Below are positions 9,622 through 22,146 of a stretch of 25,978 nucleotides of DNA, one piece after another. Origin of the DNA: a virus; the IMG/VR virus record IMGVR_UViG_3300025282_000212, positions 1 through 25,978 of that record, one strand, 5' to 3'. Both the position numbers and the translations under genes were made by a program. Each line of letters begins with the position of its first letter. The stretch's first letter is position 1. Below the pieces are notes generated by a model. That model was not told the origin of the DNA. It searched no databases and saw only the letters and a program-made list of their open reading frames with translations.

Positions 9622-11109
9622 CTATTCTCCGTTCCCTACTGCATAGGATACTCCACGCCGCATCCCATATCTGGCAAGCCTGGATTCCTGCTCAAGATCG
9701 TTCCACGTTTTGGGTCTGGCTTTTTCTGGGATCTTGGCTGTCTGCCCTCGGAGCATCTCATCCAGCATCCGGCCGAAAAGACTCAGCACATCTACCTGAT
9801 CGTCATGAGCCGCTGCCGGAAACCTCAAAACCTCAGAGATGAGATCGTCTGCCCATGCAGTTCTCGGGAAGAAGACCTTACCCATGCTCATCCTGGCCTG
9901 TATCGACCTCGCCCTTGTCGGTTTGTCCCTGCTCGATACGAATTGCTCTCGGCGGCAGAAGACTTTTCTCTCCATCATCCGCTTGGTCAAGAACGGTCCT
10001 ATTGATTTCTCGATCTGTCCTGACTCCTCACCCCAACAGAACGGCTTCCACCTGTCCATCAGGCTGATGACAGCCTCGACCCATTCATCGCTTGACGTTT
10101 GCCCCTTCCACCAATCGAGGACGTAGATGTTCTCGGCAGGATCTATCCCGATCACCCCATGTACCGTCCAATCTCCTCCGCCGTCCGTGACCGCATAATC
10201 AGAGGCTCCGTAATACGCCAGAGTCCCCACAGCTCTCTCGTCCGGCAACTTGTCGTAGTAATTGATCCAGCCTCGATTGAAATAGTCTCCCTCGTCCGGC
10301 ACAGGTTCTTGCTGATACTGAGCACTCCACTCTCTAGGACCGATAGTCTGGCGGATGTTCTCCAGTGCCTCCGCCGGATACCACTCTCGCCATAACGCCT
10401 TGTTGTCCCTAAGAGCCGGAAGCGTCAGCACCTCCCATTCGCCGGATGAATCCTCCAGGATTCTTCCCGCAAGATCATCATCATGCCATCTCGTCTGTAT
10501 CAAGACAATAGCTCCACCGGGTTGCAATCTGGTGTAAGCCGTCCCCTTGTACCAATCCCACACTCTGTCCCTGTACGTCTGAGACTCCGCATCTTCCCTG
10601 GACTTCACGGGATCGTCAATCAGGAGCAGGTCCGCGCCTCGTCCTGTGATCGGCCCACCCACTCCAGCTGCAAGATACGCCCCGCCCTCAGACGTATCAA
10701 AGCGATGCGCTGCGGTAGAGTCTTCGGTCAGGAGGTTGCCCCATAAGGCTCTATACTCCTGCGTCTGCATCAAGTTCCTGACCTGACGCCCAAAGTGAGA
10801 CGCGAGTTCCTGGGCGTATGATGTGGCAATCACCGACTTGGTAGGGTTCCTGCCGATATACCACGCCGGGAATCTGATCGAGGCAAGTTCCGACTTGCCG
10901 TGCCTGGGTGGCATAAAAATCATCAGCCGCTTGCACAGACCCTTCTCCACTCTCTCCAGAGACTTGGCGATCAGTCTGTGGTGCTTGGCTGTCTGATATG
11001 CCCGGTAGGTAAACTCGGTAAAATTTATGAGTTTCTTACGTGCCTGTCTTCTTCCGAGCACTTCCATTCCTGCCTCGGCGGTGCTGGGCAAGATCTGAGT
11101 CTGTGTCAT
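9622..11109 (-). CDS. terL: Terminase large subunit
   Basis: A 495-residue packaging motor. The ATPase half has a Walker A loop PPRHGKS (about 67-73), Walker B LLLIDDP (about 161-167) and a coupling-type QTRWHDDD segment (about 205-212). The nuclease half has the RNase H-like acidic residues in ASDYAVTD (about 302-309), EESG (about 361) and HDDQVD (about 435-440). It cuts concatemeric DNA and drives it through the portal. The ATG at 11109 overlaps the small subunit by 74 bases and has a poor ribosome binding site. An in-frame ATG at 11067, with GAGG five bases upstream, is a credible alternative start. Confidence 0.93.
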   Translation of the reverse strand: MTQTQILPSTAEAGMEVLGRRQARKKLINFTEFTYRAYQTAKHHRLIAKSLERVEKGLCKRLMIFMPPRHGKSELASIRFPAWYIGRNPTKSVIATSYAQELASHFGRQVRNLMQTQEYRALWGNLLTEDSTAAHRFDTSEGGAYLAAGVGGPITGRGADLLLIDDPVKSREDAESQTYRDRVWDWYKGTAYTRLQPGGAIVLIQTRWHDDDLAGRILEDSSGEWEVLTLPALRDNKALWREWYPAEALENIRQTIGPREWSAQYQQEPVPDEGDYFNRGWINYYDKLPDERAVGTLAYYGASDYAVTDGGGDWTVHGVIGIDPAENIYVLDWWKGQTSSDEWVEAVISLMDRWKPFCWGEESGQIEKSIGPFLTKRMMERKVFCRREQFVSSRDKPTRARSIQARMSMGKVFFPRTAWADDLISEVLRFPAAAHDDQVDVLSLFGRMLDEMLRGQTAKIPEKARPKTWNDLEQESRLARYGMRRGVSYAVGNGE

Positions 11110-15984: not shown

Positions 15985-16067
15985 AAAAAAATATCTCCCA
16001 ATGGCTTGAGTAACCCGCCGTGACAGGTTGGGTTCCCTCTCGGGTAACCCGGGCCATTGGGAGATAT
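15985..16067 (-). terminator. Long leader hairpin with U-tract (terminator or attenuator)
   Basis: Perfect 15-bp arms ATATCTCCCAATGGC (16067-16053) and its complement (16005-15991) are followed on the minus strand by seven T (15991-15985). Two further stems sit inside. One, at 16050-16030, has a GAGA (GNRA) tetraloop. The element lies between a candidate promoter and the replication gene, so it could act as an attenuator as well as a terminator for the operon upstream. Confidence 0.65.
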
Positions 16068-16107
16068 ATAGGAGGTTGTGCGATGCTCACGGCGTTCACT
16101 CGATACA

Positions 16108-16136
16108 AGTATACGAAATTATTCAGGCAAAATCAA
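16108..16136 (-). promoter_or_regulatory. Sigma70 promoter before the replication gene
   Basis: TTGATT (16136-16131), a 17-base spacer, then TATACT (16113-16108). The -35 matches four of six bases and the -10 five of six. A transcript from here would carry the long hairpin leader and then the replisome-organiser gene. Confidence 0.6.
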
Positions 16137-16755: not shown

Positions 16756-16936
16756 CTGTCTCCCCCTGGGTTTCGTGGGAAGCCGGGGGTGCCGTGCTTG
16801 AGTTCCCTCGATTCTTATCCCCCGTGCATGTTTGCCCGTAAGGCCCGGCCCTTTTTCCCCACGCTTTGCTCTTTCCCTATGTTGCTTACAGATAAACAAA
16901 CCAGGAATATTCTTATCTGTAAGCGATACTAGGCTG
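16756..16936 (-). other. Non-coding, structured gap after rusA
   Basis: No well-supported gene. It holds one copy of the inverted-repeat element (16884-16929). It also holds an imperfect long-range stem: CGTGGG-GAA and GCCGGG on one side pair with CCCGGC and TTCCCACG about 60 bases on. The frame of the downstream gene stays open through it, so a longer basic form of that protein cannot be excluded. Confidence 0.5.
16884..16929. repeat. Inverted-repeat element, copy 1
   Basis: Twelve-base perfect arms (GCTTACAGATAA and its complement) around a 17-base loop. The right 26 bases (16904-16929) are identical to 18013-18038. It is not followed by a T-tract on either strand, so an intrinsic terminator is unlikely; a protein-binding site or processed RNA hairpin is possible. 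Confidence 0.85.
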
Positions 16937-17939: not shown

Positions 17940-17990
17940 GTCGTCGACAATATTGACGGTATCGACAGTACTTTATGTGGATTCGAGGAT

Positions 17991-18038
17991 GCTTACAGAT
18001 AAACCAATTCCTGGAATATTCTTATCTGTAAGCGATAC
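17991..18038. repeat. Inverted-repeat element, copy 2
   Basis: Same 12-base arms as copy 1 (17991-18002 and 18022-18033) but a different 19-base loop start. Shares 14 bases at the left and 26 at the right with copy 1, about 1.1 kb away. Arms are kept while part of the loop differs, which favours selection on the stem. Confidence 0.85.
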
Positions 18039-18044
18039 CTCTGG

Positions 18045-18082
18045 TTTGGGGGACACTCTCAGATCTGAGAGTGTCCCCCAAA
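18045..18082. repeat. Perfect 38-bp palindrome
   Basis: Two 19-base arms with no mismatch and no spacer; each arm begins TTTGGGGGACACTCTCAGA. There is no T-tract on either side. As RNA it would give a very stable hairpin, possibly an RNase III site or transcript end-stabiliser after the 49-residue gene. As DNA it could bind a dimeric protein. Confidence 0.95.
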
Positions 18083-20026: not shown

Positions 20027-20030
20027 CGCT

Positions 20031-20183
20031 ACCTCCAGTTTGGGGTGGGGAAATTTGGGATGTCAATTCGATGCCCGGGACGGCTCCTATCCCCTGAGAA
20101 AAATCCTCTAGGAACCGCCCCGAGCGGTTGCCGCGCTCCGCAGTGTCAGGCTCCCCCACCATCAACTGCATCACCGCGCGGCA
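20031..20183 (-). other. Structured untranslated leader of the DUF932 gene
   Basis: No gene. Strong potential RNA folds include a 7-bp stem (GCCGCGC 20182-20176 with 20136-20130) enclosing GCAGT/ACTGC, and a 12-bp stem (20120-20109 with 20089-20078, two G-U pairs). I tested by eye for hammerhead and HDV-like layouts and found neither. Confidence 0.5.
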
Positions 20184-20529: not shown

Positions 20530-20817
20530 TTACCTTAGCACGAAAACATCACACGCATGATCTGACCCGACATCTACAAGCCTAGCCCTCGCGCCGTCTA
20601 CGACTATGTTCGCGAGGTCATATTCATCGTCCTCAATATCCCATACACCTGATGCCATCTCCACGAAGGAGCCGTCACTAACCCCAACAACCTCCAGCGT
20701 GTCTCGATCCACCACGGGCCAGCGTTGATCCCACTCGATGCCGTCACCCAGATCACCAATATGTCTGCCGATAAGATTCTGGACCTCGGCACTCGTACTG
20801 CGAGAAAAATTACTCAT
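20530..20817 (-). CDS. Hypothetical protein
   Basis: A 95-residue acidic protein with beta-rich segments (WPVVDRDTLEVVGVSDGSFVEM, YDLANIVVDGARARLVDV). AGGAG lies five bases before the ATG and two bases separate it from the ParB-like gene upstream, so the two are co-translated. No family recognised. Confidence 0.6.
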   Translation of the reverse strand: MSNFSRSTSAEVQNLIGRHIGDLGDGIEWDQRWPVVDRDTLEVVGVSDGSFVEMASGVWDIEDDEYDLANIVVDGARARLVDVGSDHACDVFVLR

Positions 20818-20819
20818 GG

Positions 20820-21167
20820 CTACTCCTCTCTTTTGTATGTGTCGTTGTCTATGATGATGTGATCATCCAGTGACGTGATATCGCTCGGAACCTCTCCGTA
20901 AAACTCGTCCTCGATCAGTCTATCAAAATCATCGCTGCTGACAACCCACGCCTCAGTCTGCGACTCCCCGATATCCCTCAGAGCGGAGAATCTGTGGTGT
21001 CCGTCCAGCACCAATGCGCCGCCCCCCAAATCCTCCACGACCAGCGGCAGCGGCATCGCAACCCCTCGCCTGTATGCATCGCGTATTGATAAAACCTTTT
21101 TGTCGTCAACGTCATGCTGTGGGAGGATAGATGTCCTGACCTCATCTCTGTACGCGCGTATCGTCAT
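20820..21167 (-). CDS. Small ParB/sulfiredoxin-like protein
   Basis: A 115-residue protein. The core LPLVVEDLGGGALVLDGHHRFSALRDIGESQTEAWVVS (about residues 40-77) is a compact ParB-type fold with the DGHHR signature. The C-terminal acidic part (about 80-115) is unknown. It could be a small nuclease, kinase-like or clamp-type DNA protein. The ATG at 21167, six bases after AGGAGG, is preferred over a GTG at 21170. An HDV-like ribozyme ends just before this ribosome binding site. Confidence 0.7.
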   Translation of the reverse strand: MTIRAYRDEVRTSILPQHDVDDKKVLSIRDAYRRGVAMPLPLVVEDLGGGALVLDGHHRFSALRDIGESQTEAWVVSSDDFDRLIEDEFYGEVPSDITSLDDHIIIDNDTYKREE

Positions 21168-21182
21168 CACTCACCTCCTGGT

Positions 21183-21254
21183 TACCTGTCTTAGCCGGAG
21201 GTCAATCCTCCGTTGCCTGGGCCGCGCCGCGTAGAGGCGTCAGGTATGCGGCCC
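21183..21254 (-). ncRNA. HDV-like self-cleaving ribozyme
   Basis: Full nested double-pseudoknot. P1 is 7 bp (GGGCCGC 21254-21248 with GCGGCCC 21225-21219). P2 is 6 bp (TACCTG 21246-21241 with 21188-21183). P3 is 3 bp (GCC/GGC) with a seven-base loop. P1.1 is possible (C21234-G21217, U21233-A21218). J1.1/4 reads GCAA. P4 is 6 bp (CGGAGG/CCTCCG) with a five-base loop. J4/2 holds the catalytic C21194 in GCTAAGA, fitting the C-N-R-A rule. The loop-3 and J regions resemble those of genomic HDV. Cleavage is predicted between 21255 and 21254. It begins 22 bases after the upstream stop and ends just before AGGAGG. Confidence 0.9.
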
Positions 21255-21255
21255 T

Positions 21256-21269
21256 GCCCCCGAAGGGGC
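21256..21269 (-). other. UUCG tetraloop hairpin before the HDV-like cut
   Basis: GCCCC-TTCG-GGGGC: a 5-bp GC stem with the extra-stable C(UUCG)G loop, one base 5' of the predicted cleavage site. After cleavage it would sit at the 3' end of the upstream mRNA. Confidence 0.85.
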
Positions 21270-21276
21270 GATGCTA

Positions 21277-21582
21277 TCAGTCAACTTTGAAAAATTTGAA
21301 TAGTCTGTCGATCTCCTCTGCGGCTATGTCAATGGCGTTGGTTAGCCTAGGATCACCGTATCCCGATTCTTGATGCTCGGTCCAATGCCCTAGAATGCTT
21401 TCGGCTTGATATGCGATCACTCTCCGAACTGCCTGTCGTATTTCTCGTTTTGTCATCGCCTTCTTGACCTTCTCTAACTCTCGCTCCTCCCGCTCCTCCT
21501 GCTCGAAGTCCCTGATCAACTGTTCAGCCCTCGACTTCTCTCCTGTGATCCATCGCTGTTTGTCTTCAGCATAAATGTCCAT
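21277..21582 (-). CDS. Helical hypothetical protein
   Basis: A 101-residue charged protein with a coiled-coil-prone segment (LIRDFEQEEREERELEKVKKAM) and a helical C-terminal part (TNAIDIAAEEIDRLFKFF). GGAGG lies seven bases before the ATG. It is bracketed by self-cleaving ribozyme motifs: a type II hammerhead before it and an HDV-like ribozyme after it. Two stop codons in a row (TGA TAG) end it. No family recognised. Confidence 0.62.
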   Translation of the reverse strand: MDIYAEDKQRWITGEKSRAEQLIRDFEQEEREERELEKVKKAMTKREIRQAVRRVIAYQAESILGHWTEHQESGYGDPRLTNAIDIAAEEIDRLFKFFKVD

Positions 21583-21602
21583 CTCGCACCTCCGTTTAAA
21601 TG

Positions 21603-21656
21603 GGTCTCATCAGTACCGGCTTGTCCGGTAGACCGGGCGGTTGCCCGGTTTCGACC
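21603..21656 (-). ncRNA. Type II hammerhead ribozyme
   Basis: All core bases are present in type II order. Stem II strand GGTC (21656-21653) is followed by GAAA (21652-21649). Stem III has 7 bp, ACCGGGC/GCCCGGT, with an AACC loop (21649-21632), then C17 at 21631. Stem I has 6 bp, TACCGG/CCGGTA, with an ACAAG loop (21630-21614). CTGATGA (21613-21607) and closing stem II strand GACC (21606-21603) complete it. Cleavage is predicted between 21631 and 21630. The first base of the motif is the last base of the upstream TAG stop codon, so the ribozyme starts at the gene's end. Confidence 0.92.
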
Positions 21657-21847
21657 TAGGTTACAACGTCCAGGGCGCTTTCCAGGGTTTCCTTGTCGAG
21701 AAACACGCCGTGCTTAACCCGAACGCCGGTGTTTACATCGAAGAAAAGAAGCCGGTGTTTCAGGTAGTATTCATATATCTTCTCTGTTTCTGAATCGTTG
21801 GCGCCGATTGTCTCGCGCACATACTCTCTAAATCCGTTCCGGGTCAT
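21656..21847 (-). CDS. Small hypothetical protein, first gene of the early operon
   Basis: A 63-residue protein (MTRNGFREYVRETIGANDSE...) with two helices and a short beta hairpin (HRLLFFDVNTGVRVKHGVF). AGGAGG lies seven bases before the ATG. It is the first gene after the strong early promoter, behind a leader of about 265 bases. First early genes are often host-takeover proteins, but no family is recognised. Hammerhead-like motifs flank it on both sides. Confidence 0.62.
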   Translation of the reverse strand: MTRNGFREYVRETIGANDSETEKIYEYYLKHRLLFFDVNTGVRVKHGVFLDKETLESALDVVT

Positions 21848-21857
21848 CTCGCACCTC

Positions 21858-21909
21858 CTGGGTTTCGGCGTATCTCGTCAGATCCAGGCTACGATGCCTG
21901 GCGACCCAG
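21858..21909 (-). ncRNA. Candidate type III hammerhead ribozyme (weak stem II)
   Basis: Stem III CTGGGT (21909-21904) pairs with ACCCAG (21863-21858). C17 is at 21903. Stem I is CCAGGC/GCCTGG with an ATCGTA loop, plus a G-U pair and a bulged A. CTGACGA (21881-21875) and GAAA (21866-21863) complete the core. Stem II (GATACGCC) has only one Watson-Crick pair, which would weaken activity. A competing 9-bp pairing of CTCGTCAGA (21928-21920) with TCTGACGAG (21882-21874) would hide the core. The motif ends in the ribosome binding site of the first early gene. Confidence 0.5.
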
Positions 21910-22111
21910 CCTACTATGTTCTGACGAGCTCACCCTGCTCGTCTGCGCTCCCGCTCTCCTGTGTGCCGTAGTGTTAATCCGGATTTCCCGACTTTCTGGC
22001 CGGTACCGGCGGGGTAGGAGTCCCACTCTTGCGGTTGCTATGTCCTTCGAGTGGAATCCCGAGGGCCAGACTCACGCCCCAGTTTTAACTTCGGTTCCTA
22101 CTCTCTCTTAC
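21910..22111 (-). other. Long structured early leader
   Basis: No supported gene. Potential stems include GTAGGA with TCCTAC; CCACTC with GAGTGG inside an imperfect 10-bp hairpin; and a 12-base palindrome GCCGGTACCGGC. A 33-codon frame exists but has no start or ribosome binding site. The length and structure suggest a regulatory 5' untranslated region. Confidence 0.5.
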
Positions 22112-22117
22112 ACCCAT

Positions 22118-22146
22118 AATATAACTCTTATCCTTTACTATGTCAA
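22118..22146 (-). promoter_or_regulatory. Strong early sigma70 promoter
   Basis: TTGACA (22146-22141), a 17-base spacer, TATATT (22123-22118). An A-rich stretch (GGTAAAAAAAACAC) lies just upstream as a possible UP element. Start expected near 22111. It stands directly after two terminators and drives the leftward early genes. Confidence 0.85.

Follow-up and report, generated by a model that had tools for sequence, protein, structure and literature searches.

The window analysed here is a viral record of 25,978 bases, and the operon that concerns us lies on its minus strand, where ribozyme motifs stand between a predicted promoter and a series of short genes. In the order of predicted transcription, the features of the operon are as follows.

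22118-22146, minus strand: predicted sigma-70-type promoter, TTGACA-17-TATATT, called from an 11/12 consensus match only
21903-22111, minus strand: predicted non-coding leader of ~209 nt, which type III cleavage would set free; its start is placed by reference to the promoter
21858-21909, minus strand: type III hammerhead-like element, predicted cut between 21903 and 21902
21656-21847, minus strand: gene 1, 63 aa, Shine-Dalgarno (SD) sequence GGAGGTG
21603-21656, minus strand: type II hammerhead, predicted cut between 21631 and 21630
21277-21582, minus strand: gene 2, 101 aa, SD GGAGGTG
21256-21269, minus strand: hairpin GCCCC-UUCG-GGGGC, ending 1 nt before the HDV cleavage site
21182-21254, minus strand: HDV-like ribozyme of the RF02682 family, predicted cut between 21255 and 21254
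20820-21167, minus strand: gene 3, 115 aa, SD GGAGGTG, with a weak match to ParB-like nuclease/partition domains
20530-20817, minus strand: gene 4, 95 aa, 2 nt after gene 3, with no ribozyme in between

The initial annotation had described three consecutive genes, each preceded by a ribozyme motif, and this observation largely holds. The start codons it gave (21847, 21582 and 21167) are correct, each with an SD of the GGAGGTG type, and all three elements are on the coding strand, ending ~0-9 nt ahead of the SD. Along the operon they follow one another as type III-like, type II and HDV-like, the latter two in successive gaps that run from a stop codon to the next SD on the same strand; the type II hammerhead (21603-21656) overlaps the last base of the gene 1 stop codon. 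Genes 3 and 4 are predicted to share one mRNA. For the gene 1 protein, family searches gave no confident match.

The HDV-like ribozyme upstream of gene 3 (21254-21182) scores 49.8 bits against Rfam RF02682, with E = 1.4e-6 for the window and a gathering threshold of 44 bits. Its nested double pseudoknot is complete, with P1 formed by GGGCCGC/GCGGCCC (7 bp), P2 by ACCUG/CAGGU (5-6 bp), P3 by GCC/GGC (3 bp) and a P4 of 6 bp, and J4/2 carries the catalytic C (GGCUAAG). The full HDV-like ribozyme claimed at this position is therefore borne out, both by its score above the gathering threshold and by the presence of P1-P4 and J4/2. ARAGORN finds no tRNA in the window, and the cleavage site accordingly does not fall at a tRNA 3' end, the placement of theta ribozymes; a UUCG hairpin occupies that place.

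The type II hammerhead upstream of gene 2 (21656-21603) has the core CUGAUGA and GAAA and the cleavage triplet GUC. All of its stems are paired, with stems I (UACCGG/CCGGUA, 6 bp) and III (ACCGGGC/GCCCGGU, 7 bp) closed by loops and stem II (GGUC/GACC, 4 bp) open. With Rfam RF02276 it reaches 30 bits at E = 0.0013 over 1.8 kb, short of the 37-bit gathering threshold, in a match that ends at model position 56 of 66; part of the 3' tail is missing, whereas the catalytic core is complete. Scored with a model of 56 further type II hammerheads from phages, from which the window sequence was excluded, it reaches 63.3 bits (E = 5e-20), and its fold and core are the same as theirs. Covariation in this family is very strong, with 293 doubly changed cells versus 74 in shuffles. 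A full type II hammerhead at this position is thus confirmed by the independent model together with the complete core and stems. The loop I-tail pseudoknot usual for type II is absent from the window ribozyme, and its rate may be low for this reason. Scoring with Rfam covariance models, which the initial annotation had proposed as a check, therefore supports its claims in part: the HDV-like ribozyme lies above its gathering score, but the type II hammerhead does not (30 vs 37 bits), and the type III-like element reaches 15.8 bits with Rfam Hammerhead_II.

The element upstream of gene 1 (21909-21858) had been called a hammerhead-like type III. Its core is intact (CUGACGA, GAAA and the cleavage triplet GUC), stem III has 6 bp (CUGGGU/ACCCAG) and abuts the SD, and stem I (CCAGGC/GCCUGG) adds a G-U pair to its 6 bp and contains a single bulged A. 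The core, stems I and III and the position support the assignment, but stem II and the scores do not. Stem II is a single G-C pair with a 6-nt loop, below a two-pair minimum; stems II with as few as two pairs are mentioned for hammerheads in the portion of PMC3088659 considered here. Against a type III model based on five phage sequences, which themselves score 57-74 bits, the element reaches 11.7 bits (E = 0.004 over 291 bases), and a scan of the window with this model at default settings does not recover it. A descriptor with a 1-bp stem II has a chance expectation of 1.3e-4 for a leader of such length. The CGUA of loop I could pair with the UACG of loop II in a 4-bp contact, a coincidence with a ~3% chance for two random 6-nt loops; such a contact may compensate for the 1-bp stem II. 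Judged from its sequence, the element is probably a type III hammerhead, and it may cleave.

The leader itself contains a hairpin, GACGAGC/GCUCGUC, and an anti-core strand, CUCGUCAG. When only its final 98-nt segment is folded, the hammerhead stems dominate (stem III pair probability 0.84), whereas in the fold of the full 265-nt predicted leader, which considers secondary structure only, the core is paired with CUCGUCAG at a probability of ~0.90. The leader was also considered as a tRNA or tmRNA, and this was rejected, as none was detected. Leaders that precede other type III hammerheads show no sequence similarity to the window leader.

Other structured elements occur in the window. A perfect 38-bp self-complementary stretch lies within a gap at 18045-18082, and another element is present in near-identical copies at 16883-16929 and 17990-18038. 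On the minus strand, 15985-16136 holds a promoter match followed, within ~150 nt, by a long hairpin and a T run, which would fit a small RNA or an attenuated leader as a possible reading. A 157-nt gap upstream of the DUF932 gene (20027-20183) has two strong hairpins and no Rfam match.

The layout seen in the window recurs in other phages. A pattern scan of viral contigs for type II returned at least 120 stretches. In the fetched loci, a structural descriptor identifies at least 176 distinct type II hammerheads, compared with 1 match in 1.25 Mb of simulated sequence (both strands); because the loci were fetched with the type II pattern, this count is uninformative on abundance, and the control bears on specificity and placement. 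With a stop codon at -12 to +10 nt and an SD or start codon at 5-45 nt, 104 of the 167 usable type II hammerheads among the matches listed occupy a gap that runs from a stop to the following SD/start, against 1 of 167 for the opposite strand. Among these matches, the next SD/start follows within a narrow range of distances (median 24 nt), and the ribozyme starts cluster at the stop codon. Arrays can comprise ten or more hammerheads in a row; by simple chaining of open reading frames (ORFs), 54 of the 70 ORF gaps in 13 array contigs are filled among the matches listed, and in three contigs (L119, L066 and L033) a hammerhead stands in nearly every gap. In three cultured Streptomyces phages of the Arquatrovirinae, Spernnie, Alvy and Amethyst (L154, L155 and L156), a single leftward gene cluster holds ~10 matches per phage to the type II hammerhead model. 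The window differs from an all-hammerhead array in the gap ahead of gene 3, which holds the HDV-like ribozyme.

A true type III hammerhead comes first in at least five contigs (L024, L030, L065, L078 and L079), followed downstream by type II (or I) in the same direction. In these five contigs it precedes the first gene, and any long frame further upstream is at least 100 nt away. The order in the window, with the type III-like element first, matches theirs.

Several peculiarities were seen along these arrays. Type II hammerheads occur as back-to-back pairs at L154 7580-7701, L155 11403-11529 and L037 5057-5185. In Alvy, an annotated 24-aa CDS, KGG89_gp10 (L155 10037-10111), overlaps a ribozyme at 10030-10085. 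Gaps of the usual size at 11890 in L066 and at 2564 in L033 have strong hairpins and no recognizable ribozyme, and may hold another class.

Searches for close relatives and for further mixed operons returned little. Viral contigs searched with P0002, P0003, P0005 and P0007 yielded a single relative, 99.98% identical, which has no change inside any ribozyme. The operon-region DNA and the gene 3 protein had no match among phage records, and the DUF932 and terminase proteins matched distant phages only. A strict HDV pattern recovered the near-identical contig only, whereas relaxed patterns yielded two further phage examples and one Clostridia set; the remaining relaxed-pattern matches were rejected because their fold is not HDV-like. 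In the hammerhead loci, an HDV descriptor that allows an unpaired G before the catalytic C, as in the window ribozyme, revealed no further convincing HDV-like ribozyme; scores of 16 or more numbered 11 there, of which two came from the window phage, versus 7 in simulated sequence. Hammerhead descriptors found no hammerhead in the HDV loci, and a second operon mixing the two classes was not found in the loci searched. Four Clostridia stretches (L149, L140, L141 and L146) each carry two to three HDV-like ribozymes on the same strand.

The sequence immediately before the HDV cleavage site also tends to be structured. At 20 HDV-like loci (the window, two phage contigs and Clostridia genomes), an inverted repeat stops 0-4 nt short of the cut. 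The best such repeat measures 4-12 bp (mean ~8.7), compared with ~4.7 bp in a control 200 nt upstream, although the Clostridia loci include many related sequences, so that the 20 loci are not independent. The 5-bp hairpin of the window, taken alone, is not beyond chance (shuffle p = 0.69); the repeat in L138 counts as 4 bp owing to a bulge, and those in L150 and L147 are weak. A hairpin directly before HDV cleavage may be a general rule, and the pattern is worth testing. Because the repeat ends so close to the cut, either ribozyme class should leave structured mRNA ends.

Structured ends protect bacterial RNA, and a 5'-hydroxyl resists decay that depends on a 5'-monophosphate. What the sequence shows is the motifs themselves, where they lie, the hairpins beside them and a like placement in other phages; from this we infer co-transcription, cleavage in cells and an effect on mRNA stability or translation. 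The reading best supported is that the transcript is processed into mRNAs of gene length. The type II hammerhead and the HDV-like ribozyme would each cut a transcript starting at ~22111, with the type III-like element as a possible third cutter. The products would be an mRNA of ~272 nt for gene 1, another of ~376 nt for gene 2 and a joint one for genes 3 and 4, besides the released leader. Cleavage by type II would leave stem III upstream as a 3' hairpin and stem I downstream as a 5' hairpin. Cleavage by the HDV-like ribozyme would leave the whole ribozyme with the downstream RNA and nothing of it upstream. Each new 5' end would thus have a hydroxyl and, shortly before a strong SD, a folded element: a hairpin formed by stem I, or else the HDV fold in its entirety. 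The upstream pieces would end in a hairpin with a 2',3'-cyclic phosphate; behind gene 1 this hairpin would be stem III, and behind gene 2 the one with the UUCG loop. In this view, the two classes would be interchangeable solutions that leave structured ends on each mRNA, and these ends may protect the mRNAs from exonucleases and from 5'-monophosphate-dependent RNase E, setting expression gene by gene. To this reading, in which the transcript cuts itself between genes, the two classes are interchangeable and the mRNA ends are structured, we assign a probability of about 0.68. A more tentative extension treats either a type II hammerhead or a hairpin plus an HDV-like ribozyme as a punctuation unit with a swappable catalyst and structured cut ends, and reserves type III for the first gene, where it would trim the leader and might act as a switch.

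How many of the elements cut is the point at which alternatives come closest. It has somewhat less than an even chance that only the type II and HDV-like ribozymes work and that the leader element is a decayed, non-cleaving type III. A single-pair stem II, a score far beneath that of the five phage type IIIs, the failure of the default scan and the sequestration of the core in the full-leader fold all point this way; however, the element occupies the type III position of five other arrays, all of its core nucleotides are intact, and the 4-nt complementarity of loops I and II could replace stem II. The same leader folds could instead reflect regulation, with type III off when CUCGUCAG pairs with the core strand CUGACGAG and on when the upstream GACGAGC/GCUCGUC hairpin forms, so that the cut frees the SD. 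The two foldings are mutually exclusive, the local fold being compatible with the hammerhead (0.84) and the full leader incompatible with it (0.90), and the end of stem III reaches the SD directly. Such a switch is nevertheless unlikely, as energy differences of ~3 kcal/mol do not exceed the error for a fold of 265 nt.

Readings that deny the ribozymes a role in mRNA punctuation fare worse. They might serve another purpose, such as ligation into circular RNAs, or be passengers of gene cassettes, and we regard this as quite improbable. Perreault et al. considered ligation or circular products, but the portion of their report considered here records none detected (PMC3088659). Cassettes bearing their own ribozyme would likewise produce placement in same-strand gaps, yet their carriage requires neither the narrow distance to the SD/start nor the clustering at stop codons. 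That the motifs are chance resemblances without catalytic function is scarcely credible: only the type III-like element is weak, and for the two strong elements, with their complete cores, E-values of 5e-20 and 1.4e-6 and locations in coding-strand gaps, nothing favours it. Self-cleavage between genes by both classes accordingly remains the preferred reading.

Parts of this arrangement have precedents. Clustered prophage hammerheads of types I, II or III around single genes were described by Perreault et al. (2011; PMC3088659), and the portion of that report considered here proposes single-gene mRNA processing and states that some cleave in vitro and in Escherichia coli. Those clusters resemble the window operon in having several ribozymes flanking individual phage genes, but as described there they contain hammerheads only, whereas one gap of the window operon has an HDV-like ribozyme. 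The same portion includes HHphage of haloviruses HF1/HF2, a hammerhead variant in a phage transcript, where 13 nt separate it from the first ORF's start codon downstream, with in vivo activity inferred from a transcript end (PMC3088659); like the window element, it lies close upstream of a first-ORF start, but it is described as a single ribozyme, and its host is archaeal.

For the HDV-like ribozyme, the nearest counterparts are the HDV-F-prausnitzii (RF02682) ribozymes of Clostridia, which share the fold, the conserved nucleotides, the location in a gene gap and the hairpin before the cut. The window ribozyme is divergent, at 49.8 bits versus 56-81 for Clostridia matches above threshold, and the structural descriptors used detect no hammerhead in the Clostridia loci. 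HDV-like ribozymes are also known from tailed gut phages, chiefly beside tRNAs; non-tRNA matches fall mostly in non-coding regions and are oriented like the nearest gene (Kienbeck et al., 2024; PMC10879173). These theta ribozymes are named for tRNA 3' ends, whereas the window site has a hairpin and no tRNA.

Different ribozyme classes are known to share similar locations by phage genes, near one another (earlier work cited in PMC10085705). The portion of that paper considered here names hammerhead, twister, pistol, hatchet and twister-sister ribozymes, but no hammerhead and HDV-like ribozyme in adjacent gaps of an operon. We found no description of these two classes in successive gaps of one operon in the open-access literature, which is not proof of absence. 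The analysis upholds the presence of two unrelated classes, type II and HDV-like, in consecutive gaps of a single operon, where each lies shortly before an SD. The judgment that this is unusual stands for the mixed operon, but not for its components, as far as the portions of PMC3088659 and PMC10085705 considered here extend; the novelty is narrower than first thought because hammerhead-punctuated prophage genes and co-occurring ribozyme classes were already known.

The proposed processing predicts 5'-hydroxyl ends that can be mapped, mRNAs that end in hairpins and functional exchange of the two classes. The idea is testable in laboratory phages, because the cultured Spernnie, Alvy and Amethyst carry type II arrays of their own. 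Two unrelated folds in equivalent gaps argue that what these phages keep between their genes would be a cut and its flanking structure, and not a particular ribozyme fold.
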